The notes under the pieces: generated by a model
The model's input: the letters and a program-made list of their open reading frames with translations, nothing else
What the model was told of the DNA's origin: nothing
Database searches by the model: none
Program-made: the position numbers and the translations under genes
Part shown: positions 13,563 to 32,034 of the stretch, in pieces
Layout: every line of letters begins with the position of its first letter
Numbering within the stretch: the stretch's first letter is position 1
Source: a bacterium
GTDB lineage: Bacteria; Bacillota; Clostridia; Lachnospirales; Lachnospiraceae
Direction: 5' to 3'
Assembly (NCBI GenBank): GCA_023663725.1
Contig: JAMPGX010000008.1
Span: forward strand, 80,477-124,587
Length of the DNA: 44,111 nucleotides

Positions 13563-13602
13563 ACGAACGAAGTCTGTCAGCAAGTAGCTTTGTAGAAATA
13601 TA

Positions 13603-13660
13603 CCGGCACTAAGCCTGAGCCGAAAGATATTTGGCGTCGCAGGCTTAGCGCCGGCTTTTT
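13603..13660 (+). terminator. rho-independent terminator after htpG
   Basis: CCGGC (13603-13607) and TAAGCCTG (13610-13617) pair with CAGGCTTA (13640-13647) and GCCGG (13650-13654), followed by five T. Confidence 0.88.
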
Positions 13661-19379: not shown

Positions 19380-20513
19380 ATGATGAAAGAACAGACATTG
19401 AGAAACATTTTCAGGCATCTGCCGACAGAACAGGAGTTGCTGGACAGGATCGAGGAGAGAGAAGATTTAGGTGAACTATTTGAATCGTGGAGCGTGGAAC
19501 AACAGCAGGAATATCTGGGGAGATGTACCGGTCAAAAAGGATTCAATGTTCTGTATGACGCATATTTCAAGGAGGTAATGAATCCCGAATATGATCCGTC
19601 ACGGCTGGAATCCTTTTTGGAGGTAGTTATAGGCGAAAAAGTGCGGATTTTAAAGGTTTTGCCCAATGACAGCGTGCGTCTGGAGGATGAGAACTCCTTG
19701 CTGGTGACGGACATCGTGGTGGAGCTTGCGGACGGTTCGATAGCCAATATCGAGGTGCAGAAGATCGGTAACAGATTCACGGGTCCACGCTGTTCCTGCT
19801 ATCTGTCAGATATGATGCTGCGGCAGTACAAGAGGATTCGAGCCAGAAAGAAAAAGGGATTCTCGTATGGAGATATCAAAAAGGTGTACCTGATTGTGCT
19901 TTATGAAAATAGTCCGAAAGCCTTACGGAATATGCCGGATACCTATCTGCATCGGGCCAGGCATGTGTTTGATACGGGACTGGATATGGATTTGTTGCAG
20001 AGATGTGTCCTGGTTTCTCTTGACATTTTCCAGGAAACCATGCAAAATAAACCTATCAGGACACTGCTGGAGGCATGGCTGACGTTTTTGGGTGAGGATG
20101 ATCCGCAGCGCCTGACGGAACTGTTCAGGGCGTTTCCACAGTTTATCGCAATGTATGAGACGCTGTACCGCATGTACAAGGACATGGTGAATGCGATGGG
20201 ATTCTTTTCAGAAGAGTTGCGGATAATGGATCGAAATATGGTCAAGTATATGATCGACGAGATGGATGATGAGATCAAGCGCCTGGAGGGAGTGAAGAGC
20301 CAGCTGGAGGGAGAGAAGAGTCGTCTGGAGGGAGAGAATCTTCAGTTGGAGGAGGTAAAGAGTCGTCTGGAGGGAGAGAATCTTCAGTTGGAGGAAGTAA
20401 AGAGTCAGATGGAAGAAAAGAATCTTCAGATGGAAAAACAGAATATTCAATATCAGGCTGAAATTCAAAGACTATCAGAAGAATTAAACCGGCTCAAGGC
20501 CAGTCAGCAGTGA
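19380..20513 (+). CDS. Rpn-family recombination-promoting nuclease / PD-(D/E)XK putative transposase
   Basis: A 377-residue member of the Rpn (YhgA-like) family of PD-(D/E)XK DNases, which are linked to recombination and degraded-transposon-like dynamics. The nuclease core is at about 55-165: FKEVMNPE, then TDIVVELADGSIANIEVQK, where the Asp and the E-x-Q form the active site. A helical middle part (about 180-300) contains DIFQETMQNKPIRTLLEAWL. From residue 300 the protein is a long Glu/Lys/Leu/Gln coiled coil made of a tandemly repeated 14-residue unit. AGGAG precedes the ATGATG. It is preceded by a promoter and leader terminator, and a decayed relative lies at 23122. Confidence 0.85.
   Translation: MMKEQTLRNIFRHLPTEQELLDRIEEREDLGELFESWSVEQQQEYLGRCTGQKGFNVLYDAYFKEVMNPEYDPSRLESFLEVVIGEKVRILKVLPNDSVRLEDENSLLVTDIVVELADGSIANIEVQKIGNRFTGPRCSCYLSDMMLRQYKRIRARKKKGFSYGDIKKVYLIVLYENSPKALRNMPDTYLHRARHVFDTGLDMDLLQRCVLVSLDIFQETMQNKPIRTLLEAWLTFLGEDDPQRLTELFRAFPQFIAMYETLYRMYKDMVNAMGFFSEELRIMDRNMVKYMIDEMDDEIKRLEGVKSQLEGEKSRLEGENLQLEEVKSRLEGENLQLEEVKSQMEEKNLQMEKQNIQYQAEIQRLSEELNRLKASQQ
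20319..20441 (+). repeat. 42-bp tandem repeat in the Rpn coiled-coil tail
   Basis: Units at 20319-20360 and 20361-20402 are almost identical, and a third diverged unit runs to about 20441. Each encodes SRLEGENLQLEEVK (14 residues, two heptads). The phase keeps the reading frame and the heptad, so copy number can vary without harm. Confidence 0.85.
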
Positions 20514-20544
20514 GCATTGTAAGGAGCCTGAAGGGGAGGTACAT

Positions 20545-21180
20545 ATGACAAAAAAGCAACGGGCGCTGGCGATCATCGAAAGACTCAAAGAGGAATATCC
20601 CCAGGCGCAGTGTTCTCTGGATTACGATCAGGCGTGGAAGCTGCTGGTCAGTGTGCGGCTGGCGGCGCAGTGTACGGACGCCAGAGTCAATGTGGTGGTG
20701 GAAAAGCTATATGAAAAATTCCCTGATGTGGAGGCGCTGGCGCAGGCTCCTGTGGAGGAGATCGAGAAGATCGTACATCCCTGCGGCCTGGGGAACAGCA
20801 AGGCCAGGGATATCAGCGCCTGTATGAAAATGCTGCATGATAAATACGGCGGCATGGTGCCGGATGATTTTGACAAGCTGCTGGCTCTGCCGGGTGTGGG
20901 CAGAAAGAGCGCCAATCTGATCATGGGGGATGTGTTCGGCAAGCCTGCCATCGTCACGGATACCCACTGCATCCGTCTGGTGAACCGTATGGGACTGGTG
21001 GACGGTATCAAAGAGCCCGCCAAGGTGGAAAGGGAGCTGTGGAAGATCATACCGCCCGAGGAGGGCAGCGATTTCTGCCACAGGCTGGTAAACCATGGGC
21101 GGGATATATGCACCGCCCGCACCAAACCCTGTTGTGACAGATGCTGCCTGCAGGATATCTGTAAAAAGGCAGGGGTATAA
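20545..21180 (+). CDS. nth: endonuclease III
   Basis: A bifunctional DNA glycosylase/AP lyase of 211 residues acting on oxidised pyrimidines. The helix-hairpin-helix LPGVGRKSAN carries the catalytic Lys121, and the Asp is in VTDTHC (139). The C-terminal iron-sulfur loop has Cys 189, 197 (or 196), 200 and 206, giving C-x7-C-x2-C-x5-C, a spacing one residue longer than in the E. coli enzyme. It lies 31 bases after the Rpn gene and may share its transcript. The stop is 4 bases from the convergent hemerythrin gene. Confidence 0.95.
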   Translation: MTKKQRALAIIERLKEEYPQAQCSLDYDQAWKLLVSVRLAAQCTDARVNVVVEKLYEKFPDVEALAQAPVEEIEKIVHPCGLGNSKARDISACMKMLHDKYGGMVPDDFDKLLALPGVGRKSANLIMGDVFGKPAIVTDTHCIRLVNRMGLVDGIKEPAKVERELWKIIPPEEGSDFCHRLVNHGRDICTARTKPCCDRCCLQDICKKAGV

Positions 21181-21183
21181 GGT

Positions 21184-22059
21184 TTATTTTACGCAGAATC
21201 CGAAATAGCCCTTTTGCTCTATGTTGAACAACAGACTGTAAGGGGGATACTCCTTATCAAAGCTCCTTACCAACTGCTCAAAGGTGAGCATATCCACCTT
21301 TTGCAGCTGATATTTATTGGTCAGCTCAAAGTGACTGCTGACACAGTCCATAAATTTCTGCGAGATGGATTTGATGGCATAGACCACCGTCTTGTCAATG
21401 CGGATGACCTGCTTGCCAAGCATACTGCTGAGTACCCGAAGGATCATATTCTCCTCATAGAGGAAAAAGACCTGTAGCGGTTTACCGTCCTGATCGCGGT
21501 AACTCAAGCGGTAACAGAGGGCTGTACCGGCGGAGAAGTCTTCTCCGCTATAATGCTGACTTACCAGCTCTGCCCGTACCCGGTAGAGCTGCAGCAGGGC
21601 TTGACAGACAGCTTTTTCCAGAGATTTCAACTCGTCGTCTGACTTGTTATGTATCCATTTATTGGAGGTCTTGCCAGCGATGGCTCGGTCCTCTATCATA
21701 ATATGACCGTTCAGCCAGCCCACGCAGATTCCAAGAAAATGGTGAACCGACTCTCGGGAATAATTTTCCTCTTCCAGTTCTCGCTCCAGAGCGGGCAGAG
21801 TATTGTCCCGCATATTATCGTGCAGACGTTTGTGCATGGCATAGCCTTCGTAGCCGATGGCCTGCATGTAGTCCTCCTCATCCGCGAAATGCTTCAGAGT
21901 ATAGCTCTTCAGATATTTCACGCCCTCCCGACATGCGTGTTGCTGTTTGGATTCATCTTCGTTGAGGTCGAGTAGCTTGTCTATAATGGAAAAAAGTCGG
22001 CGATGCTGTCTGTCAATGTTCTCCACGCCGATATTGAATCGGTCATGCCACTGTACCAT
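21184..22059 (-). CDS. bacteriohemerythrin-domain protein with extra C-terminal domain
   Basis: A di-iron, O2-binding hemerythrin fold in residues 1-130 of a 291-residue protein. It has MVQWHDRFNIGVENIDRQHRRLF, HFADEEDYM, HKRLHDN and WLNGHIMIED, giving the H...H...HxxxE...HxxxH...HxxxxD ligand set. Residues about 150-291 form a second alpha/beta domain with AIKSISQKFMDCVSSHFELT, whose length and pattern recall CheX-like chemotaxis phosphatases, but I cannot confirm this. The chosen start is the ATG at 22059, beginning the conserved MxxW; a TTG 26 codons upstream is also open. A likely role is oxygen sensing in a signalling protein. Confidence 0.82.
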   Translation of the reverse strand: MVQWHDRFNIGVENIDRQHRRLFSIIDKLLDLNEDESKQQHACREGVKYLKSYTLKHFADEEDYMQAIGYEGYAMHKRLHDNMRDNTLPALERELEEENYSRESVHHFLGICVGWLNGHIMIEDRAIAGKTSNKWIHNKSDDELKSLEKAVCQALLQLYRVRAELVSQHYSGEDFSAGTALCYRLSYRDQDGKPLQVFFLYEENMILRVLSSMLGKQVIRIDKTVVYAIKSISQKFMDCVSSHFELTNKYQLQKVDMLTFEQLVRSFDKEYPPYSLLFNIEQKGYFGFCVK

Positions 22060-22181
22060 GCTCAATGTAAGGACTTCCTTTCTGCGCCTGCGGTTTTCTT
22101 CTTTTAATTTATCATATTTTTCTCCAATGCACAACAATAACTATCTTGATAACTCTTGTCACAAAATATTTGAAAAAGGGA

Positions 22182-22210
22182 TTGACTCTCCCCTTAGGTC
22201 AGAATATAAA
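22182..22210 (+). promoter_or_regulatory. promoter/operator of the MerR gene
   Basis: TTGACT (22182-22187), 17 bp, TATAAA (22205-22210). The spacer contains an imperfect dyad, CTCCCCT-T-AGGTCAG, as expected for a MerR-family operator between -35 and -10. This suggests autoregulation. Typical MerR-activated promoters have 19-bp spacers; this one does not. Confidence 0.6.
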
Positions 22211-22255
22211 CTAATTACAGATTCGAATCTATCATCGCGAAGGAGGTATGAAAGG

Positions 22256-23059
22256 ATGCTGCAGATCGGAGAATTTTCAAGGATATGCCAGGTCAGTGTC
22301 AAGACGCTGCATCACTATGACAAGATCGGTTTGTTGGCTCCTGCGCAGGTAGACCAGTTGACGGGCTACCGCTATTATGAGACAGAGCAGATCGACAGGA
22401 TGAACTATATCCAGCGTCTGAAGCGTTACGGTTATTCGTTGGAAGAGATCCAGCGCCTGATTACCGTTTCGGATAAAAAGGAACTCGCGGGCGAGTTGAG
22501 AAGGCAAAAGGAAAAACTGAAGTATGAGCAGCAGGAGATGGCTATCATCCTGAACGAGCTTCAGACACATATTTCTGTATTTGAAAGGACAGGTGACATT
22601 ATGACTTATCAGAAGGGTTATTCCGTTGAAATCAAGAAATCTCCGCAGATCAATGTTTTGGCGGTCAGGGCTCAGATGGGAGTGGATGAATTTGGCAAGT
22701 ATTACGGAACACTGTATGAGCGCGTGCCGAAGGAGCAGGTTACGCCCACCGGAGTCACTGGTGCCAGATATCACGATGAGGAATTCAACCATGAATCTTC
22801 GGACGTAGAGGTATTTATCGGTATCCGTGAAAAAGAAAAGGCGGATGCGGTTATGGAGTCCTGCGAGTGCGCGATGACTGTACATCGCGGCGGATACTCC
22901 ACGCTTTCCGAGGCCTACGGCGCAGTCGTATCGTGGATCATCGAGAACGGCTATGAGCATGTGGGAGCGCCGTTTGAACTGTATATCAAGACGCAGTTTG
23001 ACTCCCTTTCGCCAGAGGACTGGGAGACGGAGGTGTATTTCCCGATTCGAAAGAAATAA
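22256..23059 (+). CDS. MerR-family transcriptional regulator with GyrI-like effector domain
   Basis: A 267-residue regulator of the BmrR/BltR type. The N-terminal MerR winged helix is LQIGEFSRICQVSVKTLHHYDKIGLL followed by GYRYY. A dimerisation coiled coil spans about 80-115. A GyrI-like small-molecule-binding domain spans about 120-267 (VRAQMGVDEFGKYYGTLYER, then EVYFPIRK at the end). It probably senses hydrophobic cations or drugs. AGGAGG is 9 bases before the ATG at 22256; the frame stays open upstream but has no motif there. It is divergent from the hemerythrin gene, and no efflux gene is adjacent. Confidence 0.9.
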   Translation: MLQIGEFSRICQVSVKTLHHYDKIGLLAPAQVDQLTGYRYYETEQIDRMNYIQRLKRYGYSLEEIQRLITVSDKKELAGELRRQKEKLKYEQQEMAIILNELQTHISVFERTGDIMTYQKGYSVEIKKSPQINVLAVRAQMGVDEFGKYYGTLYERVPKEQVTPTGVTGARYHDEEFNHESSDVEVFIGIREKEKADAVMESCECAMTVHRGGYSTLSEAYGAVVSWIIENGYEHVGAPFELYIKTQFDSLSPEDWETEVYFPIRKK

Positions 23060-23083
23060 CAGAATGTATTCTCGCGTAAGATG

Positions 23084-23120
23084 CCCGCTCATCGACCTTT
23101 GCCGATGGGCGGGTGTTCTT
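23084..23120 (+). terminator. probable terminator after the MerR gene
   Basis: CCCGCTCATCG (23084-23094) pairs with CGATGGGCGGG (23103-23113), with one mismatch, followed by a weak T-rich tract. Confidence 0.65.
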
Positions 23121-23121
23121 G

Positions 23122-23181
23122 CTTTGTCTTGACATTTGCAGGCAAACCATGCAAAATAAATCTGTACGGAATGTTACTTAA
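23122..23181 (+). pseudogene. fragment of an Rpn-family gene
   Basis: The codons at 23122-23169 align without gaps to 20013-20060 of the intact Rpn gene. The fragment reads LCLDICRQTMQNKSVR against VSLDIFQETMQNKPIR, then reaches TAA at 23179. Nothing of the nuclease core is present. A following short open stretch to 23255 (EFDQLGADMRFVAMLIASK) may be more of the same remnant but does not match the intact gene. Confidence 0.6.
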
Positions 23182-23479
23182 AGGAATTTGACCAGTTGGG
23201 GGCTGATATGAGATTTGTGGCAATGTTGATTGCGAGTAAAAATATCAGGGAATAGCCACAAGTCCAGAAATAAGATATATGTTTTTTCCCATAGATTTTT
23301 TTCCTGATATATGATTCGTGGGTATATTTTACGACAGGAGTTGTGGCGGTATGTTCGGTAGAAGAGACATATCTTGCAGTAGTGGGCCCGTATTATATAG
23401 TTGCAATGCTTATCAAAATAAAGGAAGCGGATAACTTTGATAAAGGAAAGATATGTGATTATGGTATCATGATTTGAAA
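23182..23479. other. noncoding junction between chromosome and prophage
   Basis: About 300 AT-rich bases with no gene. The left prophage attachment site should lie here or just beyond, before the integrase. No tRNA gene, and no repeat identifiable as attL, could be recognised without the right end. Confidence 0.4.
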
Positions 23480-23518
23480 AAGGCGGGAAATGCTTGATTT
23501 TAGGGCATTTCCCGCCTT
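23480..23518. terminator. bidirectional terminator at the integrase end
   Basis: GGCGGGAAATGC (23482-23493) pairs perfectly with GCATTTCCCGCC (23505-23516). It is flanked by A-run and T-run, so it can stop the leftward integrase transcript and rightward chromosomal transcripts. Confidence 0.85.
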
Positions 23519-23557
23519 TCTTGTTACTAATTTGTTACTTGTTCAGTGCTGAAAACA

Positions 23558-24574
23558 TTATTTTAACAGTTCAATGGTGTCCCGCAACTGTTCAATGGTC
23601 TTGTGGTTATAGACCCGGTTGCCGACATCCTTTGACTTGTGACCCATCAGCATATCAATACACTTTCTGTTGCCCCCGGCATTGTCAAGCATAGTTTCAA
23701 AAGTGTGCCTTGCTTCATGCGGGGTCTTATCTGCTTCAATCTTGGTCATGACTTCTTTCCAAAATGTGTAATATTGGGTTTGTGAAATTTTCCTTCCCTG
23801 ATAGGTGAACAAGTATTTGTTGCCTTGGTCAACCAATGACTGCACCAGTGGTCTGATGCGGGTATGCACCGGGACAATTCTGCCCTTGCCGGATGCTGAC
23901 TTGATACCGCCTTGAAATGACCAGTCTTGGGTGTTCACCTGTTCTGTTTTCATGTTCAGCAGTTCAGTCAAGCGGAATCCTGTATATAAGTAAATCAGTA
24001 CAGTGTTGACCCATTCATCAGACTGTATTTCCCAAAGAGCATCAACCTGTTCAGCGGTGAATGGTTGCCGGGTAGTATCAGGAATGGGCGGGGCGGTTGT
24101 GATGGTTGAATACATCTTGTCAATTATATCCAGTTCAAAGGCAAAGCGGTCAAGATGACCCCACAGGTTTTTTATTGCCCCTTGGGTGGAGTACCCACAC
24201 CCACAGTTGTCAATGCAATCTTGCATCTGATATGCCCTGATTGAACGGTATTTCAGACCATAGTATTTTGAACAATGCCTGAATGCAGACTTCAATGAAC
24301 TTTGCAAGGAAGTCCCAAGTTTTGGCAGCTTCACCTTTGACCATTGCTGATACAGTTCCACAAGGGTCACTTTATCCCGCTTCACATTCCAAGGGTTATT
24401 GTTATATTGTGCCAACAGAATATAAGCCTGTTCTTCTGTTTCAGCATATCCCACAGGGGTCTGCCTTGCATTGGCATCTGCATCATAGATTGTCACCTTG
24501 ACCACATAGGGTCTTGACCTGTTCCCTTTCAGCTTGGTCACACATCCGTAACCGTTGGGGTTGCGTTTTCTCAT
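23558..24574 (-). CDS. int: site-specific tyrosine recombinase (phage integrase)
   Basis: A 338-residue recombinase that would integrate and excise the phage. An AP2-like arm-binding N-terminus (about 8-60) is followed by a SAM-like core-binding domain (about 68-150). The catalytic domain has Arg201 (YTGFRLTELL), Lys225 (GGIKSASGKG), His286 and Arg289 (PHEARHTF), His312 (LMGHKS) and the nucleophile Tyr322. All catalytic residues are present. AGGAAGGA precedes the ATG. The gene is leftmost and leftward, with its terminator just outside, the usual position next to the attachment site. Confidence 0.95.
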   Translation of the reverse strand: MRKRNPNGYGCVTKLKGNRSRPYVVKVTIYDADANARQTPVGYAETEEQAYILLAQYNNNPWNVKRDKVTLVELYQQWSKVKLPKLGTSLQSSLKSAFRHCSKYYGLKYRSIRAYQMQDCIDNCGCGYSTQGAIKNLWGHLDRFAFELDIIDKMYSTITTAPPIPDTTRQPFTAEQVDALWEIQSDEWVNTVLIYLYTGFRLTELLNMKTEQVNTQDWSFQGGIKSASGKGRIVPVHTRIRPLVQSLVDQGNKYLFTYQGRKISQTQYYTFWKEVMTKIEADKTPHEARHTFETMLDNAGGNRKCIDMLMGHKSKDVGNRVYNHKTIEQLRDTIELLK

Positions 24575-24637
24575 AGTCTTTCATTCCTTCCTGATTGAAA
24601 TTTCAAGGAAAGAATGATACAATATACTTGCATAGCA

Positions 24638-24694
24638 CTTATATCATCCTATTCCTTGATATAGTGTTACAGAACCCTGACCGCTGCAACGGTT
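24638..24694. repeat. inverted copy of the early leader element (left copy)
   Basis: On the minus strand this reads AACCGTTGCAGCGGT, then after 19 bases an AAGGAATAGGATG-containing 23-mer. That 23-mer is 22/23 identical to 25828-25850 on the plus strand. It sits in the integrase leader, so the leftward and rightward transcripts begin with the same element. Confidence 0.75.
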
Positions 24695-24715
24695 GGGGTT
24701 CAATTTTATGTTCAG

Positions 24716-25027
24716 TTACAGTTTGGCTATATACTTTTTCCAACAAGGTATATTTGCAATGAAGTCTGCAATAGTTCCTTCAATGGTTTTGGATGACTGC
24801 CCTTTTAATATCTGCATCCAATGTGATCTTCCTTGAAGTTTAATTTTCCCTACTGGATAAGTACCATACTGAACAGACAAAACACCATTAGACATCCTGA
24901 TCAAGTGAATGTGTTTATTTTCCTGTTCAGACAATTCAGCAAACAGTTCATTGAAAAACTGTTCTTCCAATTCATTGATGGCATAATCCTTTGCGGTGGT
25001 GCAATTCTTTGATATGCGGTAGTTCAA
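24716..25027 (-). CDS. phage protein of unknown function
   Basis: 103 residues from a TTG start with AGGTG 8 bases upstream. No recognised domain and no signal or membrane segment. It contains an acidic N-terminal helix (about 18-40) and then a short beta-rich stretch. It lies between integrase and repressor in the leftward lysogeny module, so an accessory role in lysogeny or immunity is possible but not shown. Confidence 0.6.
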   Translation of the reverse strand: MNYRISKNCTTAKDYAINELEEQFFNELFAELSEQENKHIHLIRMSNGVLSVQYGTYPVGKIKLQGRSHWMQILKGQSSKTIEGTIADFIANIPCWKKYIAKL

Positions 25028-25060
25028 TTCTCTTTCACCTGTCCTTTCTGTATTGGTATC

Positions 25061-25232
25061 ACTGGTAGCGGTTGCAGTATCGGTTGAAAATCCTTTGATT
25101 TCCTTGCGGTAACACTTGGTAACGGTAAAATCATCATTCTTTAATATTTGTTGCTTATATGAGCGTTATATAAAAGAATAGAAGTATAAAAATATAAGTA
25201 AAAGAATTATAACCGTTACCCGCTACTGCTGA
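25061..25232. repeat. GTAGCGGTTA-type repeat region A around an AT-rich core
   Basis: GTAGCGGTTG (25065), GTATCGGTTG (25077) and GTAACGGTAA (25119) lie left of an AT-rich stretch (25133-25209). To the right are inverted TAACCGTTAC (25210-25219) and CGCTAC (25221-25226). Region B at 42604 has the same arrangement. Possible replication origin or regulator site. Confidence 0.65.
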
Positions 25233-25263
25233 TACTATGTAAAATCCACCACAATGATATTCC

Positions 25264-25644
25264 CTATGCGTTCAATAATTCTTTTTTCTTTTTCTGATAT
25301 TCAGGTTGTGTTGCAATGTATTCTGCATATTTCAGAATAGCTTTTTGACCATCTGCATTTAGTTTAGTGAATATCTGAACAAGTTCATTCTGTTCATTGG
25401 TCAGCACTGGTTCAGGTTCAGGTGCAACAATGATCTTTGAATCTGAAAACATGAGTTCACAAGGGGAAATCTCAAATAGTTCAGCCATTTTTAGAATGTT
25501 ACTTCTTTTGATGTTTTCCACATTCCCCTTTTCCCATTTCATGACAGCAGCTTTTTTGACAGGACTTGGAAGTTTTGCACCAAGTTCTTCTTGCGTAAGT
25601 CCCAGTTTTTCCCGGTGGTACTTGATTTTGTCACCCATAGTCAT
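25264..25644 (-). CDS. XRE-family phage repressor
   Basis: 126 residues, with a helix-turn-helix in residues 5-65 (IKYHREKLGLTQEELGAKL, then KWEKGN). A short C-terminal helical region (about 82-120) probably serves dimerisation. There is no LexA/S24 peptidase domain, so RecA-triggered self-cleavage is not expected and induction needs another route. The gene is divergent from the early region. Half-sites of the proposed operator overlap its own promoter (25671-25685), consistent with autoregulation. The start is ATG 25644, or the in-frame ATG at 25638. Confidence 0.88.
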   Translation of the reverse strand: MTMGDKIKYHREKLGLTQEELGAKLPSPVKKAAVMKWEKGNVENIKRSNILKMAELFEISPCELMFSDSKIIVAPEPEPVLTNEQNELVQIFTKLNADGQKAILKYAEYIATQPEYQKKKKELLNA

Positions 25645-25670
25645 ATAAGAACCCCATCCTTTCTATAACA

Positions 25671-25685
25671 AGTATCTTGATTTTA
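25671..25685 (-). promoter_or_regulatory. leftward repressor promoter with operator half-site
   Basis: The minus strand has an extended -10 TGGTAAAAT (TAAAAT at 25685-25680). The half-site AGTATCTT (25671-25678) lies immediately downstream. A second half-site is at 25721-25728. Confidence 0.55.
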
Positions 25686-25746
25686 CCACAAAATCGGTAC
25701 AAAATCCAGTTTTTAGAAAAAGTATCTTAAAAATTAAAAAAAGGTG

Positions 25747-25775
25747 TTGACATACGAAAAAAAGTTTGGTATAGT
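25747..25775 (+). promoter_or_regulatory. rightward early promoter
   Basis: TTGACA (25747-25752), 17 bp, TATAGT (25770-25775), with a TGn extension. Together with the operator just downstream, this is the main lytic switch promoter. Confidence 0.9.
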
Positions 25776-25778
25776 AGC

Positions 25779-25797
25779 AGTATCTTCACAAGATACT
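25779..25797. promoter_or_regulatory. phage operator 1 on the early promoter start site
   Basis: A perfect AGTATCTT-CAC-AAGATACT inverted repeat starting 4 bases after the -10, covering the expected transcription start. Related sites are at 27585, 35315 and 39796. Confidence 0.85.
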
Positions 25798-25805
25798 TAC
25801 AAAGA

Positions 25806-25850
25806 AACCGTTGCAGCGGTTGGAAAAATCAAGGAATAGGATGGTATAAG
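25806..25850. repeat. early leader element (right copy)
   Basis: AACCGTTGCAGCGGTT (25806-25821, a nearly perfect palindrome), then 6 bases and the 23-mer with AAGGAATAGGATG at 25828-25850. It supplies the ribosome site of the first early gene. The inverted partner is at 24638-24694. Confidence 0.75.
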
Positions 25851-25853
25851 GAT

Positions 25854-26270
25854 ATGATGAAACAGGAATTTGAACGGTTGGCAAAAATCGAAGTCACAGA
25901 AGAAACCTATACAAAGGTGATTGAACCCATGTATTCAGCAACAGACCTTTCCAAAATGGATTTTATAAAGCTGCTGAACCTGAAAGCACTCCAAGCACCA
26001 AAAGTCGTGGAAAAGACAATCAAGAAGATGGCGGTTCGTGACAGAAGTGGATTCAGGAAAACACCAAACGGATGTTATTACCACATTGAATATGTTGAAC
26101 TGGTGGATGTAGACATCAGGACAGGGAAATTCATTGTGAAGCCTTTGGAAGATGAAGATTTCCGAAAACTCATAGAAGAAGGACATGATCTGAACCTTAG
26201 CACTGATTTTGATTTTGACTATATCCAGTGCTTAGACACAAAGAAAAAGCCTGTTACACTGGCAGCATAA
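25854..26270 (+). CDS. first early phage protein, unknown function
   Basis: A 138-residue soluble acidic protein with no domain I recognise. Residues 1-60 look helical. The middle (RSGFRKTPNGCYYHIEYVELVDVDIRTG) looks like a beta hairpin, and the end is acidic (DLNLSTDFDFDYIQCLD). It is the first gene after the early promoter and operator, so it is repressed in the lysogen and made first on induction. ATGATG start; AGGATGG lies about 9 bases upstream. Confidence 0.7.
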   Translation: MMKQEFERLAKIEVTEETYTKVIEPMYSATDLSKMDFIKLLNLKALQAPKVVEKTIKKMAVRDRSGFRKTPNGCYYHIEYVELVDVDIRTGKFIVKPLEDEDFRKLIEEGHDLNLSTDFDFDYIQCLDTKKKPVTLAA

Positions 26271-26318
26271 GACAGACACCCACCCCGGCGGGTCAAAGCC
26301 GGGGAGAAAGAAGGGATA

Positions 26319-26483
26319 ATGTCAAAAGTTCAGGAAGTAAAGAAAGCTATGGTTGCCCTTGGTTATCCAAAGACAGAACACATTGAACTGGAAAGACTGG
26401 ATGACAGCAGAAGCAAGGTAATATATGACGGTCACTTCATTATTGGCATATATGACTTTAACCGTCACACATTCGTTGATTAG
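26319..26483 (+). CDS. small early phage protein
   Basis: 54 residues, MSKVQEVKKAMVALGYPKTE at the start and FIIGIYDFNRHTFVD at the end. GGAGAAAGAAGGG lies directly upstream of the ATG, and the next gene's ribosome site follows the stop, which supports a real gene. The sequence looks like a small alpha-beta-beta domain. Function unknown. Confidence 0.65.
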   Translation: MSKVQEVKKAMVALGYPKTEHIELERLDDSRSKVIYDGHFIIGIYDFNRHTFVD

Positions 26484-26492
26484 AAAGGTGGT

Positions 26493-26705
26493 ATGAACAT
26501 GACATTGGAAAAGATTTATGAAATGGGACTGATTAAGGATGACACAGAAATATTTGTTCGTCAGGGTGAAAGGTTCAAGGTGCTTGCACATGGCAACTGG
26601 TATCAGGATGATGTACTGAACTATATGCACCATGATGTTGAATCCTTCACATGGGAAGATGACAACAAACTTTATGTTGACATCAAGGAAACACAGGGGG
26701 TATAA
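26493..26705 (+). CDS. small early phage protein
   Basis: A 70-residue protein with AAAGGTGG 8 bases upstream. It is compact, acidic and aromatic-rich (HGNWYQDDVLNYMHHDVESF), with no known domain. A promoter-like TTGACA / TATAAA pair overlaps its 3' end and reads into the following noncoding block. Confidence 0.65.
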   Translation: MNMTLEKIYEMGLIKDDTEIFVRQGERFKVLAHGNWYQDDVLNYMHHDVESFTWEDDNKLYVDIKETQGV

Positions 26706-26706
26706 A
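26677..26706 (+). promoter_or_regulatory. putative promoter for the noncoding block
   Basis: TTGACA (26677-26682), 18 bp, TATAAA (26701-26706), ending at the stop codon of the previous gene. TTGACA can arise by chance here from Val-Asp-Ile codons; the correctly placed -10 makes it more credible. Confidence 0.5.
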
Positions 26707-26711
26707 TCCCC

Positions 26712-26909
26712 CGCTGTAATGCAGCTTCCCAACCATCCAAGGGAACAGGTCACAAGCCCTGATAAATGCAGAGTGGCAGCGAACTGAAACGCTTAATAAT
26801 AAAACACCCACATAATTAACCGGGTTCAGAACAGGGTAGCCGGAAGGTGTGGCACTCCATCCAGTGTCAGGCGGTCATGTGAAGCACCTAACGAATGAAA
26901 CCGCCTTTT
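26712..26909 (+). ncRNA. candidate noncoding RNA 1 (promoter to terminator)
   Basis: About 200 bases without an open frame between a promoter-like sequence and a terminator-like hairpin. Small hairpins are GCTG/CAGC (26713-26725), TTCCC/GGGAA (26726-26745) and AGCG/CGCT near 26778-26793. The 3' stem is GGCGGTCAT (26870-26878) with ATG and ACCGCC (26895-26905), followed by TTTT. A GGTG/CACC pairing would cross this last stem, so a pseudoknot is possible. I do not recognise the family. Confidence 0.45.
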
Positions 26910-26918
26910 AGAAAATAG

Positions 26919-27136
26919 TTGCAGTTCTTTCAAAAGATTGTCTATTGTGTGTTGGTCAACAGGTTTTGTTCATTTTTAAGGTGAAAATGTTCAGCGGTTC
27001 AGGGAAAGCAACGCTTGAAAAATTCCCTTGTCGGTCAACAGGATTGCAGATTTTAATGTGAAATCTGATAAAGGAAAGACACCCCTGACTGCATCAAGGT
27101 GTGCTGACAATAGACAACTTTTTGAAAGAACTGCAA
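26919..27136 (+). ncRNA. candidate structured RNA 2 (30-bp closing stem, twin hairpins)
   Basis: The left arm 26919-26948 and right arm 27107-27136 are complementary at 28 of 30 positions, plus one G-U pair. Inside are two copies of GGTCAACAGG (26954-26963 and 27033-27042). Each is followed by a hairpin with a 7-nt loop TAAGGTG or TAATGTG on different stems (CATTTT/AAAATG and CAGATTT/AAATCTG). Two more stems lie inside: AGGGAA/TTCCCT (27001-27006 and 27023-27028) and ACACC/GGTGT. A shared loop on stems of different, self-compensated sequence argues for RNA. No open frame spans it. Confidence 0.65.
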
Positions 27137-27154
27137 AGAAAGGGAAGGTGACTT

Positions 27155-27379
27155 GTGGCAAAACAGAAAATATTGACAGCGTTCATTGAACAGGTTGTTC
27201 AGCTTGAAAATGAATCAGATTTTCAACAGTATTTGAATTTCCTGAAAGCGGGAAAGACCCTGTACCACATCAGAGATACTAAAAGGGATGCAGCGGGCAA
27301 GGTCTATGTGACCATAAGGAAGCAGTACAACAACAATGTATTCCCGGATGCAGAACAGAAAGAAGGTGAGAATGGATGA
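27155..27379 (+). CDS. small phage protein
   Basis: 74 residues from a GTG start with GGAAGGTG upstream, overlapping the next gene by 4 bp (ATGA). N-terminal amphipathic helix (ILTAFIEQVVQLENESDFQQYLNFL, about residues 6-29), then a beta-rich end with YVTIRKQYNN. No family recognised. The overlap ties it to the Cro-like gene. Confidence 0.65.
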   Translation: MAKQKILTAFIEQVVQLENESDFQQYLNFLKAGKTLYHIRDTKRDAAGKVYVTIRKQYNNNVFPDAEQKEGENG

Positions 27380-27594
27380 ACAAAAACCTGTTAAGAAGCA
27401 TCATGGTATTGCATGGTGACAACGACACAACACTTGCAGAGTTCCTTTTGATTTCAAGATCAAGGTTTTCTGCAAAAATCAATGAAACAGGCGGGGCAGA
27501 ATTTACCAAAAGGGAAATTACAAGAATTAGAGAAAAGTATGAATTGACCGGGGAACAGGTCATTGACATTTTTTTTGCCCCAAAAGTATCTTGA
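27376..27594 (+). CDS. Cro-like DNA-binding protein (DUF739-like)
   Basis: A 72-residue single helix-turn-helix protein. MNKNLLRSIMVLHGDNDTTLAEFLLISRSRFSAKIN then EFTKREITRIREKYELTGEQVIDIFF follows the pattern of small phage Cro/DUF739 proteins. It probably competes with or antagonises the repressor at operators. Its last codons contain the -35 and part of the -10/operator of the next promoter (27563-27603). Confidence 0.75.
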   Translation: MNKNLLRSIMVLHGDNDTTLAEFLLISRSRFSAKINETGGAEFTKREITRIREKYELTGEQVIDIFFAPKVS

Positions 27595-27603
27595 TAAGAT
27601 ACT
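27563..27603 (+). promoter_or_regulatory. internal promoter with phage operator 2
   Basis: TTGACA (27563-27568), 18 bp, TATCTT (27587-27592). The -10 lies inside a perfect AGTATCTT-GAT-AAGATACT repeat (27585-27603), so a repressor bound here would block the promoter of the following genes. Confidence 0.7.
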
Positions 27604-27633
27604 ACAAAATGTTTGAAAGGATAGGTGAACAAA

Positions 27634-28047
27634 ATGAAATTCAGCGAAAAGTTGAAAAGTGCTATGCAGCAGTTGGGAATCAATCAGGCAAAGGTGGTCA
27701 GCCTGACCGGGAAAAGCAAGGGGTCAATCAGTCAGTACCTTTCCGGGAAGCAGACACCATCAGCGGATGTTCAGCGTGACATTGCAGTGTCACTTGGACT
27801 TGCCCCGGACTTCTTTGAACAGGAAGAAAGCAAAGCGGTCATCATGAAACCGTCAGAAACAGGGAAGATTGAAAGGCTTTTGCCGGAAGAAGTTGCACCC
27901 CTTCTTGGGATGGATAAGGGAACGGTCAGGAAAGGATTGCAGCAAGGGGTTTTCCCTTGGGGGTATGGAATCCACACTTCTGAAAATCGTTGGTCATACT
28001 TCATCAACAAGAAGCGGTTTGAGGAAATCGAAGGTGTGACGGTTTAG
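27634..28047 (+). CDS. XRE-family regulator with second C-terminal DNA-binding domain
   Basis: 137 residues from the ATG at 27634; GGATAGGTG lies 6 bases upstream, and an in-frame GTG 3 codons earlier is less likely. The N-terminal XRE domain is FSEKLKSAMQQLGINQAKV, then SKGSISQYLSGKQ (residues 3-60). The C-terminal part (LLPEEVAPLLGMDKGTVRKGLQQGVFPWGYG, then WSYFINKKRFEEIEG) resembles a MerR/excisionase-like winged helix. Two DNA-binding heads in one small protein suggest looping or excisionase-type activity. It is transcribed from an operator-controlled promoter. Confidence 0.78.
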   Translation: MKFSEKLKSAMQQLGINQAKVVSLTGKSKGSISQYLSGKQTPSADVQRDIAVSLGLAPDFFEQEESKAVIMKPSETGKIERLLPEEVAPLLGMDKGTVRKGLQQGVFPWGYGIHTSENRWSYFINKKRFEEIEGVTV

Positions 28048-28062
28048 GAAAGGGGTGAACAT

Positions 28063-28965
28063 ATGCCAAAGATTCAATACAAGGAAATCAACTTTCAGAA
28101 GAAAAGCCTTGACCTGATTGAATTGGTGAATCAGGTTGTGGATGAATATTCTGCACAGGGGTATGAACTGACCCTTAGACAAGCCTACTATCAGTTAGTT
28201 GCAAGGGGTTACATCCCCAACAATGAACGCAGCTATAAGAACATAGGCAACCTTATCAATGACGGCAGACTTGCCGGACTGATTGACTGGAACAGCATCA
28301 CAGACAGAACCCGCAATCTTAGGGGCAACAGCCATTGGCACACCCCGGCAGATGTGATTGCATCCGCAAGGTACTCATACCTTCTTGATAAGTGGATGGG
28401 TCAACCGAATTATGTTGAAGTGTGGGTTGAAAAGGATGCACTGGTTGACATTGTTGGTCAGGTTTGCAGACCGCTTGACACACCACATTTTTCTTGCCGG
28501 GGTTACACTTCACAGTCAGAAATGTGGAGTGCTGCACAGCGTTTCATCCGGCAGAGTGACCGGGAAAAAAGAATCATCATCCACTTGGGCGACCATGACC
28601 CAAGCGGTATTGACATGACAAGGGACATTCAGGAACGGTTGGAAATGTTCGGTGCTGATGTGTATGTGAAGCGGGTGGCACTGACCATGAATCAGATTCA
28701 GACATACAACCCGCCACCCAACCCGGCAAAGATAACGGACAGCAGAGCATCCAAGTATATTGACCAGTTCGGTGATGAATCGTGGGAACTGGATGCCCTT
28801 GAACCGAAGGTCATCACTAACCTGATAAATCAGGAAGTCACAAAGTACCGGGATGATGAAATATATCAGGCAGTGTGTGACAAAGAGAGGAAGGAAAAAG
28901 AAGAACTGAAAATGTTGGAACGCAACTATGACAGGGCGGTTGCCTACTTGGAAAGTGAGGATTGA
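28063..28965 (+). CDS. Spo11/Topo VI subunit A-like Toprim protein
   Basis: 300 residues. The N-terminal winged-helix part contains LTLRQAYYQLVARGYIPNN, resembling the catalytic-tyrosine motif R-x-x-Y-Y of Topo VI-A/Spo11 (Tyr42 or Tyr43). A Toprim domain follows, with Glu123 (VEVWVEKDALV) and the DxD in HLGDHDPSGID (Asp177 and Asp179). The late part LTMNQIQTYNPPPNPAK and YIDQFGDESWELDAL matches the Spo11-like C-terminal region. No Topo VI-B ATPase gene is nearby. This agrees with the short stand-alone Spo11-like proteins ('Mini-A' type) reported from mobile elements. It may nick or bind DNA in replication or recombination; activity is inferred. Confidence 0.7.
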   Translation: MPKIQYKEINFQKKSLDLIELVNQVVDEYSAQGYELTLRQAYYQLVARGYIPNNERSYKNIGNLINDGRLAGLIDWNSITDRTRNLRGNSHWHTPADVIASARYSYLLDKWMGQPNYVEVWVEKDALVDIVGQVCRPLDTPHFSCRGYTSQSEMWSAAQRFIRQSDREKRIIIHLGDHDPSGIDMTRDIQERLEMFGADVYVKRVALTMNQIQTYNPPPNPAKITDSRASKYIDQFGDESWELDALEPKVITNLINQEVTKYRDDEIYQAVCDKERKEKEELKMLERNYDRAVAYLESED

Positions 28966-28969
28966 AGAA

Positions 28970-30025
28970 ATGGGAGAAGTCAAAGGGTACAAGGTTTTCA
29001 ATAAAGACTGGACTTGCAGAGGTTTTCAGTACACTTGCCCCGGAGTTTTTGAAGAAGATGTCAAGCCTATGGTGTGTGACCGGGGATTTCACTTTTGTGA
29101 AAAGCTGTCTGACTGTTTTGAGTATTACAGGTTTAACCCTGAAAACAAGGTTGCAGAAGTCATTGCCCTTGGTGAAGTGGATTCTGATGGCAAAAAGTCC
29201 TGTACCAACAAGATTCAGATTGTGCGGGAAATCACTTGGGATGAAGTCTTGCGGATTGTGAACGAAGGAAAAGATTGCACAGGCATCTGCAACACCGGGA
29301 ACAGGAACACCGGGGACTGGAACACCGGGAACAGGAACACCGGGAACAGGAACACCGGGAACAGGAACACCGGGAACAGGAACACCGGGGACTGCAACAC
29401 CGGGGACTGGAACACCGGGAACAGGAACACCGGGGACTGCAACACCGGGAACAGGAACACCGGGAACAGGAACACCGGGGACTGGAACACCGGGAACAGG
29501 AACACCGGGGACTGCAACACCGGGAACAGGAACACCGGGAACAGGAACACCGGGGACTGGAACACCGGGAACAGGAACACCGGGGACTGCAACACCGGGG
29601 ACTGGAACACCGGGGACTGCAACACCGGGAACAGGAACACCGGGGACTGCAACACCGGGGACTGGAACAAGTCATCTTTCAATAATGGGTGTTTCATGAC
29701 AGAAGAACCTAAAATCAGTATGTTCAACAAACCTTCTGACTGGTCATACAGGGATTGGCTGAACAGTGATGCCCGGTATCTTCTGAACCAGATACCAAAG
29801 AATGTTGTGGAGTGGATATATACAGAGGATATGACGGATGAAGAAAAGGCAGAGCATCCGACACATGAAACAACAGGCGGGTATTTGAAGGTACTGGATG
29901 AATCTGAATGTGGTCAGTTATGGTGGGGCAGCTTGACAGACCGACAAAAGGACATCATCAAGGCATTGCCGAATTTTGACCCTGAAATATTTGAACAGTG
30001 TACTGGTATCAGGGTAGATGAATGA
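28970..30025 (+). CDS. phage protein with 25 NTGxx pentapeptide repeats
   Basis: 351 residues from the ATG at 28970. Residues about 1-105 form an N-terminal domain (VKGYKVFNKDWTCRGFQY, then CDRGFHFCEKLSDCFEYY) resembling the phage DUF7666 family. Residues 108-232 are 25 uninterrupted pentapeptides, NTG followed by NR, DW or DC. The C-terminal 115 residues are an ordinary mixed domain with SDWSYRDWLNSDARYLLNQIP. The repeats resemble the Pentapeptide_2 pattern and should form a right-handed beta-helix. It starts 4 bases after the Spo11-like stop, so it is co-translated, and overlaps the helicase start by 8 bp. Confidence 0.85.
   Translation: MGEVKGYKVFNKDWTCRGFQYTCPGVFEEDVKPMVCDRGFHFCEKLSDCFEYYRFNPENKVAEVIALGEVDSDGKKSCTNKIQIVREITWDEVLRIVNEGKDCTGICNTGNRNTGDWNTGNRNTGNRNTGNRNTGNRNTGDCNTGDWNTGNRNTGDCNTGNRNTGNRNTGDWNTGNRNTGDCNTGNRNTGNRNTGDWNTGNRNTGDCNTGDWNTGDCNTGNRNTGDCNTGDWNKSSFNNGCFMTEEPKISMFNKPSDWSYRDWLNSDARYLLNQIPKNVVEWIYTEDMTDEEKAEHPTHETTGGYLKVLDESECGQLWWGSLTDRQKDIIKALPNFDPEIFEQCTGIRVDE
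29291..29665 (+). repeat. 25 x 15-bp tandem repeat
   Basis: Units of AACACCGGGAACAGG, AACACCGGGGACTGG and AACACCGGGGACTGC occur 13, 6 and 6 times with no other variation. Units 9-13 and 14-18 repeat the same order (NR DC NR NR DW), a 75-bp higher-order unit. Near-identity at third codon positions indicates recent expansion. Confidence 0.97.
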
Positions 30026-31367
30026 ACCTGTATTCATGCCCCATCAGAATCAGGCACTTGACCTGACGGAATCATTCAACAGGTGTGCATATTACCTTGA
30101 TATGGGACTTGGCAAGACCTTTGTGGGTGCAGAAAAGATGTGGCGGTTGAACAATGCAGTGAACCTTGTCATATGCCAAAAATCCAAGATTGATGACTGG
30201 GCTGCACACTTCAAAGAATTTTATCCTGAATACCATGTTTTGAACTTGACCAAGAAAAGTGAAGCGGTCACTTTCAGGAATGAACTGGCAACAATGGAAA
30301 TGTACCATTCATCTGACCTGATAGGCATTGTGAACTATGAAACAGCATTCAGGCGGGATTGGCTGCTGAAACTGCAAAACTTCACCCTTCTACTGGATGA
30401 ATCAAGCCTTATCAGCAACGAAACAGCAAAGCGGTCAAAGTTTGTCCTGAAAATGAACCCTGAAAGTGTGGTGCTGCTGTCCGGGACACCAACAGCCGGG
30501 AAATATGAAAGGTTGTGGTCACAGTTGCGGTTGCTTGGTTGGGACATATCCAAGGAAACCTTTTGGAAGTCCTATGTTGAAACACAGTGGGTTGAAGAAG
30601 GGGATTTCAAGCATGAAGTCATTGTTGGGTATAAACACACTGAACACCTAAAAAAAAGGCTTGCTGAACATGGTGCTATCTTCATGAAAACAAGTGATGT
30701 TGTGGACTTGCCTGAACAGATTGAACAGAAAATTTTTATGAAACCTACCAAGGCATACCAGTATTTCATGAAACACAGTTACATCATGCTTGACACTTTG
30801 AACTGTACCCCTTTCCATGATGATTCTGATTTTTATGGCAAGGATGTCACACCAAGGGTTGAACTGGTTGGTGACAACAGCCTGACCAAGACCCTGTATG
30901 CAAGGCAGCTATGCGGGCAGTACCACAAGGAAAAACTGGAAGCATTCAGGGACTTGCTGCAATCCACTGATGACAGGCTGATTGTTTTCTATAACTTCAC
31001 TGCTGAATACCTTGAACTGGTCAAGATAGCGGATGAACTGGGGAAACCACAGTCAATAGTGAACGGTAAGCAGAAACAGTTATTGAACTATGAGAATTGC
31101 AGCAATTCAGTCACCTTCATCCAGTATCAGGCGGGGGCAATGGGCGGGAACTACCAAAAGGCAAATAAGGTTGTATATTTCACCTTGCCCCTTGGGAAAG
31201 GTTCATGTGACCTTTGGGAACAGTCAAAAAAGCGTGTTCACCGTATCGGTCAGGACAAGACCTGTTTCTATTACTACTTACTGGTGAAGGGAAGCATAGA
31301 AGAAAGAAACCTTGAAGCATTGAAGGTTGGAAAGGATTTGACAGATGAATTATTCAAAGAGTATTAA
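30018..31367 (+). CDS. SNF2-family DNA helicase/translocase
   Basis: 449 residues. Motif I is YYLDMGLGKTFVGAEKM with Lys33, motif II is LLLDESSLI (about 124, a DESS variant of DEAH), and motif III is LLSGTPTAG. In the second RecA-like lobe are FIQYQAGAMGGNYQKANKVVYFTLP and motif VI KKRVHRIGQDKTC (about 403). It lacks accessory domains, as usual for phage-encoded members thought to remodel protein-DNA complexes at replication forks. It overlaps the genes on both sides, so it belongs to one early operon. Confidence 0.93.
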   Translation: MNEPVFMPHQNQALDLTESFNRCAYYLDMGLGKTFVGAEKMWRLNNAVNLVICQKSKIDDWAAHFKEFYPEYHVLNLTKKSEAVTFRNELATMEMYHSSDLIGIVNYETAFRRDWLLKLQNFTLLLDESSLISNETAKRSKFVLKMNPESVVLLSGTPTAGKYERLWSQLRLLGWDISKETFWKSYVETQWVEEGDFKHEVIVGYKHTEHLKKRLAEHGAIFMKTSDVVDLPEQIEQKIFMKPTKAYQYFMKHSYIMLDTLNCTPFHDDSDFYGKDVTPRVELVGDNSLTKTLYARQLCGQYHKEKLEAFRDLLQSTDDRLIVFYNFTAEYLELVKIADELGKPQSIVNGKQKQLLNYENCSNSVTFIQYQAGAMGGNYQKANKVVYFTLPLGKGSCDLWEQSKKRVHRIGQDKTCFYYYLLVKGSIEERNLEALKVGKDLTDELFKEY

Positions 31368-32034
31368 AAGGGCAGACATTGCAAGAAGGGTCATCCTGTC
31401 ATGGTGCGTGGTTGCAGTTGTCTTTCTGCTGATAGGCGGTGTGTCAGGATATGCCCTGAAAACTCATATAACCGCCAAACAGGGCGGTCAAGACGAAAAG
31501 CAGACAAATATACAGGCAGAGGGTAAAACCCTTGTATATGGGGCATATGATGACCGCACATTCACACAGGAAATACCGCTTGACTGGGATGCGGGGGATT
31601 TGGATTTTGTACCGCTGCAATGCAGTATGCCACAGGAAGAACAGGAATTTTTGTTCTACCTATGCAGCGGGTACAACATAGACTTCTGCCTTGTCATGGC
31701 AATGATACAGACGGAATCAAAGTTTGATGCAAGTGCGGTCAGTGCAACGGATGACTATGGACTGATGCAGATAAACCAAAACAACCATGACTGGCTGACA
31801 GAAACCCTTGGTGTGACAGACTACCTTGACCCATACCAAAATATGCGGGCGGGTTGCTACATACTTAGGAAACTGTTTGAACGGTATCAGGACACTGAAC
31901 TTGTCCTTATGTGCTACAACATGGGGGAAAACGGTGCATCCCGGTTATGGGAGAATGGCATATATCACACTGACTACACTGAACAAGTGCTGAACTGTCA
32001 AAGACAGTATCAGGAACAGTTGGAAGGTGATTGA
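31345..32034 (+). CDS. membrane-anchored lytic transglycosylase
   Basis: 229 residues with one N-terminal membrane helix (about 17-37, preceded by Lys/Arg), then an outside linker. An SLT-type domain follows (about 95-225). The catalytic Glu is 124 in AMIQTESKFDASAVSATDDYGLMQIN, with the later AGCYILRKLFERY and LMCYNMGENGA segments. It should cleave peptidoglycan near the membrane. It overlaps the helicase gene by 23 bp and sits among replication genes rather than in a lysis or tail module, which is unusual. Confidence 0.88.
   Translation: MNYSKSIKRADIARRVILSWCVVAVVFLLIGGVSGYALKTHITAKQGGQDEKQTNIQAEGKTLVYGAYDDRTFTQEIPLDWDAGDLDFVPLQCSMPQEEQEFLFYLCSGYNIDFCLVMAMIQTESKFDASAVSATDDYGLMQINQNNHDWLTETLGVTDYLDPYQNMRAGCYILRKLFERYQDTELVLMCYNMGENGASRLWENGIYHTDYTEQVLNCQRQYQEQLEGD

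Follow-up and report, generated by a model that had tools for sequence, protein, structure and literature searches.

A structured RNA of Lachnospiraceae phages, in twin and single forms, as a possible leader at mRNA 5' ends

Comparison with related sequences indicates that the element at positions 26919 to 27136 of the window (the whole 44,111-nucleotide stretch of DNA analysed here) is a real structured RNA whose fold has been kept by compensatory changes. The element belongs to a family with two forms, the twin form found in the window and a commoner single form, and both forms combine two repeating units. In unit A, the loop of a hairpin pairs with the nucleotides immediately 5' of the hairpin (a CAGC/GCU pseudoknot); unit B consists of GGUCAACAGG followed by a hairpin with the loop UAAGGUG. 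The single form has the order A-B within a short (6-bp) closing stem; the twin form has the order B-A-B, and most of its copies are enclosed by a closing stem of up to ~30 bp. We favour, with slightly less than even confidence, the reading that the RNA is the leader at the mRNA 5' end of a phage early message, which it may protect or prime. An earlier note on this DNA had placed a structured RNA of modular build in the early region of a phage and judged it smaller than GOLLD and ROOL, and the data support that proposal; its function, the single-form relatives, the link to ribozymes, tRNA-like elements and promoters, and the leader position were absent from that note.

The two arms of the closing stem, at 26919..26948 and 27107..27136 on the plus strand, pair as had been claimed, through 28 Watson-Crick pairs of 30 plus one G-U pair, the remaining position being an A-C mismatch. 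The sequence GGTCAACAGG, likewise said to occur twice, was found at 26954 and 27033 only when both strands of the 44 kb were scanned. The first of these cores (26954..26963, plus strand, unit B1) is conserved in alignments A2, A3 and A5, and the second (27033..27042, plus strand, unit B2) was located by motif search. Given that the patterns used to collect copies fix core letters, this conservation of the core is partly built in, whereas the flanking pairs and the upstream end makers were not fixed. The two hairpins with nearly the same loop were also recovered as described, CATTTT-TAAGGTG-AAAATG (P3a, 26971..26989, loop 26977-26983) and CAGATTT-TAATGTG-AAATCTG (P3b, 27047..27067, loop 27054-27060), both on the plus strand and both supported by pairing and covariation. 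Unit A comprises hairpin P2 (27001..27028, plus strand), in which AGGGAA at 27001-27006 pairs with TTCCCT at 27023-27028 and which covaries in the single form, and a pseudoknot (26993..27015, plus strand), recognised in the window by eye, between AGCG at 26993-26996 and CGCT at 27012-27015. A further hairpin, P4 (27079..27102, plus strand, ACACC/GGTGT), was likewise assigned by eye, and its place appears to be taken by a different stem in several other twins. Directly past the twin RNA, inspection showed a Shine-Dalgarno-like sequence, AAGGGAAGG (27140..27148, plus strand), followed by an open reading frame (ORF) of 74 amino acids with a GTG start (27155..27379, plus strand, from the ORF list), the first past the leader, whose product matched no family. 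The start codon at 27155, 19 nt past the 3' arm, the 4-bp pseudoknot and an upstream twister-P1 candidate are additions to the earlier note. Its statement that no open frame spans the element was confirmed, with at least two stop codons in each of the six frames over 26919-27136.

The arms of the twin RNA were the only 30-nt inverted repeat (at most two non-Watson-Crick positions, arm starts 40-249 nt apart) in positions 20001-32000 of the window. The folding energy of 26900-27160 was -80.9 kcal/mol, compared with -62.95 ± 4.93 kcal/mol for shuffled sequences (z -3.64), and none of 200 shuffles was as stable.

The earlier note had looked to homologues for compensatory changes in the stems, and such changes were found in relatives for the closing stem, both same-loop hairpins and the pseudoknot. 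The single form is made up of the closing stem P1, the pseudoknotted hairpin P2, the stretch GGUCAACAGGUUUU and hairpin P3 with the loop UAAGGUG. Among 32 single copies, which include near-duplicates, 95.4% of pair cells were paired versus 79.7% in shuffled controls, the covariation score was 0.518 versus 0.196, and 14 of 21 pairs had changed on both sides. In P2, 92.2% of cells were paired and all six pairs showed changes on both sides. The pseudoknot, which was absent from the model behind the single-form alignment, was paired in all 32 copies with compensatory changes at two of its three pairs (pair 1, A-U in 27, G-C in 4 and G-U in 1; pair 2, G-C in 32; pair 3, C-G in 29 and U-A in 3), and a twin-form version, GGCG/CGCC, was seen by eye in L024 and L030. 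For 11 twins the corresponding values were 97.1% paired versus 86.8% in shuffled controls and a score of 0.270 versus 0.134, with 14 of 40 pairs changed on both sides. Over the 22 closing-stem pairs of these twins, 97.0% of cells were paired and eight pairs had changed on both sides, three rows being nearly letterless there; L024 and L030 have gaps over most of the stem in the twin alignment, and in L040 no long closing stem was seen. P2 and the pseudoknot were misaligned by MAFFT in some twins and were left out of the twin covariation count, and alignment A3 leaves out L013, the 5' arm of which is cut short. A pseudoknot-like hairpin, P5, was noted by eye before the closing 3' arm in some twins but is lacking in the window copy. 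In controls with shuffled and shifted alignments, four of five measures beat the shuffles in all three counts; the fifth, further pair types, showed no excess over shuffles in A2 (reached by 221 of 500) or A3 (153 of 500) and an excess in the 32-copy count only.

The possibility that the two arms are the terminal repeats of a mobile element (MITE), which the earlier note had raised against its own reading, was rejected, given that the arm sequences vary among homologues while their complementarity stays and that the genome carries no second copy of the twin RNA. A type III antitoxin was set aside because the genes that follow the element look unrelated. The RNA also appears to be undescribed, as had been proposed: no Rfam 15 family matched 26919-27136 at the gathering threshold or at E <= 0.05, nor was there a match with 26600-27300 at E <= 5. 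In the homologue loci scanned (a subset of those numbered below L075), no Rfam match lay over the module core at E <= 0.1 or 0.01.

A DNA search with 26700-27160 returned nothing in phages or plasmids, and blastn against 200 genomes of the host family matched four, the source genome included, in which the window lies on contig C48. The first homologue found, in G111, is a true homologue, and that of L002 lies on the minus strand. In G050 and G056 the match covered ~30 nt; both were discarded, and no Rfam match was found there at E <= 0.1. In searches with core patterns, viral contigs yielded 6, 18 and then 49 overlapping stretches and genome contigs 21. Four loci with core letters but no module (L021, L032, L037 and L049) were dropped; with model R1, L032 and L049 gave E-values of 0.19 and 0.29, and L021 and L037 gave nothing at E <= 1. 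Model R1 was built from 18 single copies and model R2 from 11 twins, and the E-values of both are rough. R1 matched 18 of 397 host-family genomes at E <= 0.01, in 15 of which the core motif was confirmed, the other three (G081, G162 and G249) being weak matches of 24-28 bits with no core motif. Across the phylum, R1 matched one of 398 genomes at E <= 0.001, namely that of the window itself. R2 matched nine of the 397 host-family genomes at E <= 0.001, five as full twins and four as shorter matches.

Among 18 genome contigs bearing the module, nine are from Lachnospiraceae and three from Acetatifactor, Roseburia or Blautia, genera that we take to belong to the same family, so that Lachnospiraceae is presumably the host family. 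The leader family was thus seen only, in the samples searched, in what appear to be phages of this family. Some copies depart from the two standard forms. In L080, L081 and L083 a B unit lies inside another leader. On the minus strand of L092, unit B and part of unit A occur in tandem 94 nt apart (pattern starts 1299 and 1393), and around position 5098 of L084 (plus strand) a B-B tandem has, by eye, a twister-like motif on each side. L013 and L014 carry near-identical twin RNAs in different surroundings, as might be expected of a recombination joint.

The region around the window copy is a prophage by its gene content. Five of the ten proteins given were identified by protein match: an integrase (23558-24574, minus strand), an HTH repressor (25264-25644, minus strand), an HTH protein (27625-28047), a topoisomerase-family protein (28063-28965) and an SNF2-type helicase (30018-31367). 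A promoter-like site, TTGACA-17-TATAGT (25747..25775, plus strand), matches at 11 of 12 positions, has TG before the -10 and faces the early genes, divergent from the repressor gene; the scan that found it gave six sites overall versus 5.9 in shuffles, that is, no excess. Downstream of the stop codon of a 70-amino acid ORF (26493..26705, plus strand, from the ORF list), the window contains in 5' to 3' order a candidate twister-P1 ribozyme, a second candidate structured RNA that we call element X, the twin RNA, the Shine-Dalgarno-like sequence and the ORF at 27155-27379. The product of 26493..26705 resembles, by eye, the protein behind the twin RNA in L014. The twister-P1 candidate (26713..26780, plus strand, RF03160) begins 8 nt past the stop codon and is a full-length Rfam match scoring 57.8 bits, compared with a gathering threshold of 67.2, with an E-value of 2.3e-12 in a short stretch and 1.5e-10 in the whole window. 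Judged from the ribozyme class, its cleavage site presumably lies at ~26717.

Element X (26804..26905, plus strand) was delineated by eye and is common only to L016, where the counterpart is at 8270-8400 on the minus strand. Comparison by eye showed CACCC/GGGTAG against CAGGG/CCCTAG, segments swapped yet complementary, and a second pair, AGGTG/CACCT against AGGGG/CCCCT. A pattern search in viral contigs gave L016 as the sole relative, and there was no Rfam match. The stretch 26706-26918, which spans element X, folds no more stably than shuffles (z 0.06). Two further features of the window were noted, an ORF of 365 amino acids (28928-30025, plus strand) in which NTGN[RWC]-type repeats form a long run, and a strong inverted repeat at 13599-13658 with a weak match to a miRNA model on both strands, which is probably only a terminator-like hairpin.

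The chief surprise was the placement of single-form copies, ahead of unrelated genes and, almost throughout, behind an element that would create an RNA 5' end. We examined 54 distinct copies, comprising 29 from the first sets and 25 of 44 new loci; six new loci that repeat others exactly over ~170 nt, 13 twin or other loci, repeats within the first sets, and L025, L036 and L045, with too short an upstream sequence, were left out. The copies are related, so that counts do not represent independent events. A hammerhead pattern was present in 25 of the 54, with the predicted cut at -101 to -109 from the core (median, -107) and with GUC (21 copies) or AUC (4 copies) at the cut site; the script required core and stem I (6 of 6 pairs) and was limited to NUH sites and to cores at -70 to -95. 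An earlier unrestricted scan of 190 nt had found 14 hammerhead cores at -78 to -86. A strict tRNA T-arm was present in 19 of the 54 copies, and the tRNA 3' end, assumed to lie eight nucleotides past the T-arm, is predicted at -107 to -111 in 14 of these (median, -108) and at -71 to -80 in the remaining five. Four copies (L018, L059, L111 and L120) have a promoter-like site matching at 10-12 of 12 positions and ending at -124 to -126. Looser tRNA evidence was obtained for five: ARAGORN tRNAs end ~108-111 nt upstream in L105 and L106 and ~110 nt upstream in L020, L019 has a looser T-loop, and L086 has a tRNA-like stretch recognised by eye. In L112 no end maker was seen. At random places in the same loci, the strict T-arm occurred at 0 of 1146, the hammerhead pattern at 14 of 1146 and promoter-like sites matching at 10 or more positions at 58 of 1146.

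Rfam gave partial agreement with the script. Among 29 single-form loci scanned, a set exclusive of the 11 later script-called hammerheads, a Hammerhead_II match at E < 0.01 abuts the module in 11, with scores of 32.8-37.3 bits; only that of L026 (37.3) exceeds the gathering threshold of 37, and every other ribozyme match next to the module lies below gathering. The script-called hammerheads of L060, L062 and L070 had no Rfam match at E <= 0.1. ARAGORN called a tRNA at the expected place in 8 of 26 sources and in 6 of 12 in the second set, with varied or odd anticodons. Elements of this kind, tRNA-like, at a fixed distance and with varied or unreadable anticodons, were noted upstream of the module in L020, L023, L031, L041, L043 and L056 and also in L103, L105, L106, L109, L122 and L127; they look as if they had been kept as processing signals rather than for decoding. 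The hammerhead and the tRNA-like element, two unrelated devices, are thus predicted from their sequences to set the same leader start within 1-2 nt. Two loci carry additional ribozymes: in L057 a hammerhead, the module and an ORF are followed by a second hammerhead past the ORF stop and before the next Shine-Dalgarno sequence, and in L055 the module follows a tRNA-like element, with a twister-P1 further downstream ahead of another ORF.

The rule that an end maker lies upstream holds strongly among single copies but is unproven among twins. In 500 nt upstream of 22 twins, near-duplicates among them, an end maker was found for 13: two hammerhead patterns with a CCGACGA core (L024 and L030, that of L024 having no Rfam match at E <= 0.1), one twister (the window copy), one T-arm (L088) and nine promoter-like sites matching at 10-12 of 12 positions at -192 to -424 (L013, L014, L040, L089, L117, L097, L115, L118 and L119), with no ORF noted between site and twin in these nine. 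A RAGATH-8-like signature lies between promoter and twin in eight of the nine. Nothing convincing was seen upstream of the other nine twins (L016, L042, L048, L065, L066, L071, L100, L101 and L108), several of which come directly after an ORF; L016 has a RAGATH-8-like signature only, its by-eye promoter failing the rule, and L108 has a perfect promoter from which it is separated, by eye, by an ORF. Random places in the twin scan gave a T-arm in 15, a hammerhead in 12, a promoter-like site matching at 10 or more positions in 185 and a twister motif in 5 of 1100, so that promoter-like sites within 500 nt prove little in twins. The link to end makers is therefore weaker in the twin form, the form found in the window.

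Given that a promoter, a ribozyme and a tRNA-like element would each yield a defined 5' end, the module most simply acts there. The RNA of the early operon would be cut before certain genes by ribozymes or by enzymes of tRNA processing (RNase Z or P), or would be started there, and the leader would thereby be placed at a new RNA 5' end. A stable fold at this end may block 5'-end-dependent decay of the RNase J1 type, and the leader fold may also present a clean ribosome-binding site. In many copies behind hammerheads or tRNA-like elements, a short ORF encoding R-[AEGS]-P-P might let a stalled ribosome act as a further roadblock. In the window, twister cleavage at ~26717 would give an mRNA that starts with the twister remnant, followed by element X, the twin RNA and the ORF at 27155. 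A broader proposal, which we hold more tentatively, is that phages of this gut family use a standard front-end system for their early messages, in which a promoter, hammerhead, twister or tRNA-like element sets the 5' end and the common module serves as an RNA-only cap, with a short ORF bearing an arrest motif behind it in many copies, the ribozymes existing to expose the leader.

The best rival, though an unlikely one, is an antitermination RNA resembling put, which would fold on the nascent chain, bind host RNA polymerase and let it pass terminators, with a copy past each cut re-arming the polymerase after loss of the preceding element by cleavage. Several copies do lie behind an early promoter-like site (L018, L059, L040, L111 and L013), as HK022 putL and putR, each with two stem-loops, lie behind PL and ~270 nt behind PR, respectively (PMC9378689), and the diversity of downstream genes would suit a general role in transcription. 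Polymerase would, however, appear to meet few intrinsic terminators: in 89.7 kb, taken as stretches of up to 3 kb behind 31 chosen elements, terminator-like sites of this kind numbered 2 in the sense and 24 in the antisense orientation, the antisense strand being an imperfect control. Such an RNA could also work without a start codon close by; an ORF preceded by a Shine-Dalgarno-like site was nonetheless found within 260 nt behind 45 of 46 elements (34 single and 12 twin copies; median, 34 nt), an uncontrolled figure based on rough start choices, some of them inside the leader. Nor does antitermination predict the cut position that hammerheads have in common with tRNA-like elements.

More doubtful is a regulated leader, in which unpaired conserved nucleotides would be the binding site for a protein of the phage or its host, or for a small molecule, so that translation of the following gene is switched. 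The long invariant unpaired stretches of A2, GGUCAACAGGUUUU and UAAGGUGAAA, which are partly fixed by the search patterns, are consistent with such a receptor, as are the pseudoknot near the ribosome-binding site and the doubled B unit of twins. The downstream genes look unrelated by eye (HTH proteins, DNA methylases, an ASCH-like protein and small unknown proteins), unlike those of most metabolite riboswitches, and regulation leaves the fixed link of the single form to end makers unexplained. A free non-coding RNA, its closing stem cut by an enzyme such as RNase III, its twin core acting in trans and the ORFs being incidental, we regard as improbable. Such an RNA would account for the closing stem of up to ~30 bp in twins, whose pairing is kept while its sequence changes, and for the nine of 22 twins with no convincing end maker, but the closing stem of the single form is just 6 bp, and an element followed by a Shine-Dalgarno-like site and an ORF in 45 of 46 copies does not look like a unit with its own promoter and terminator. 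That the element is itself a new self-cleaving ribozyme is very improbable, given that single copies already have a known cutter or a processing site on their upstream side, so that a second would be redundant, and that its anatomy suggests no cut site, for all its compact pseudoknotted fold, its many invariant unpaired nucleotides and the known ribozymes adjoining it.

The R-x-P-P ORFs are a lead separate from the window element. The scan took a point 45 nt past the start of the core, considered ORFs within 170 nt of it and required the motif among the first 16 codons; such ORFs were found in 20 of 32 single copies, in none of 12 twins and at 92 of 3840 random places. At x the residue is A, E, G or S, synonymous codons are used for R and P, and R-E-P-P is present in 9 of 14 hammerhead copies. 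Loci with R-[AEGS]-P-P were L020, L022, L023, L025, L026, L033, L034, L036, L041, L044, L050, L052-L058, L060 and L070. In known arrest peptides, RAPP or RGPP causes strong arrest, whereas RSPP is partly permissive (PMC12992588). R-A-P-P, R-G-P-P and R-S-P-P in short ORFs behind many single modules resemble these; here, however, the motif lies within the first 16 codons, is often R-E-P-P, a term with no occurrence in the main text of that paper, and is absent from the 12 twins.

To our knowledge, the purpose of the many phage hammerhead and twister ribozymes is unsolved. Two devices at one predicted RNA end before one module make this question directly testable, and, if the proposal is true, a new class would be added to the phage leader RNAs, one that could serve as an off-the-shelf part for setting 5' ends in bacteria of the Clostridia type. 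No earlier description of the module was present among the titles listed, a coverage exclusive of subscription journals.

Among known systems, GOLLD and ROOL are structured RNAs of phages of related hosts; the twin RNA is far smaller, lies before ORFs and does not match their Rfam models. RAGATH RNAs are families found near twister and hammerhead ribozymes. In L013, RAGATH-8 (RF02687; 152.9 bits) immediately precedes the twin RNA; in L014 it is weakly matched at this place (34.7 bits; gathering threshold, 86.7), and a common 15-letter signature of it is present upstream of 9 of 22 twins. RAGATH-8 or its signature was noted, mostly behind a promoter-like site, in L013, L014, L016, L089, L097 and near-duplicates. 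The twin and single modules themselves match neither RAGATH-8 nor other Rfam families, the comparison being with Rfam rather than with the data of the first RAGATH paper.

Prophage hammerheads have been described that cluster around individual genes whose identity varies, and cleavage of ~2-kb pieces of native polycistronic RNA has been observed in vitro (PMC3088659). The likeness to L057 and L055 is that ribozymes flank varied genes; the sections of PMC3088659 used here describe no conserved downstream RNA module and no tRNA-like or promoter alternative. The put RNAs of HK022 are, like the module, early phage leader RNAs with two hairpins behind an early promoter, but putL and putR are ~70 nt long (PMC9378689), whereas the module is pseudoknotted, has ~120-250 nt and precedes ORFs, and its single form also lies behind ribozymes and tRNA-like elements. 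In Bacillus subtilis, mRNAs such as ermC and aprE are stabilised by 5' roadblocks or by leaders with a strong Shine-Dalgarno sequence, and leaders with an occluded 5' end likewise stabilise long mRNAs (PMC3997798). Those are the ends of cell or plasmid genes, whereas the end of the module is often predicted to arise from a self-cleaving RNA or tRNA processing; common to both would be a structured or ribosome-occupied 5' end that protects the message.
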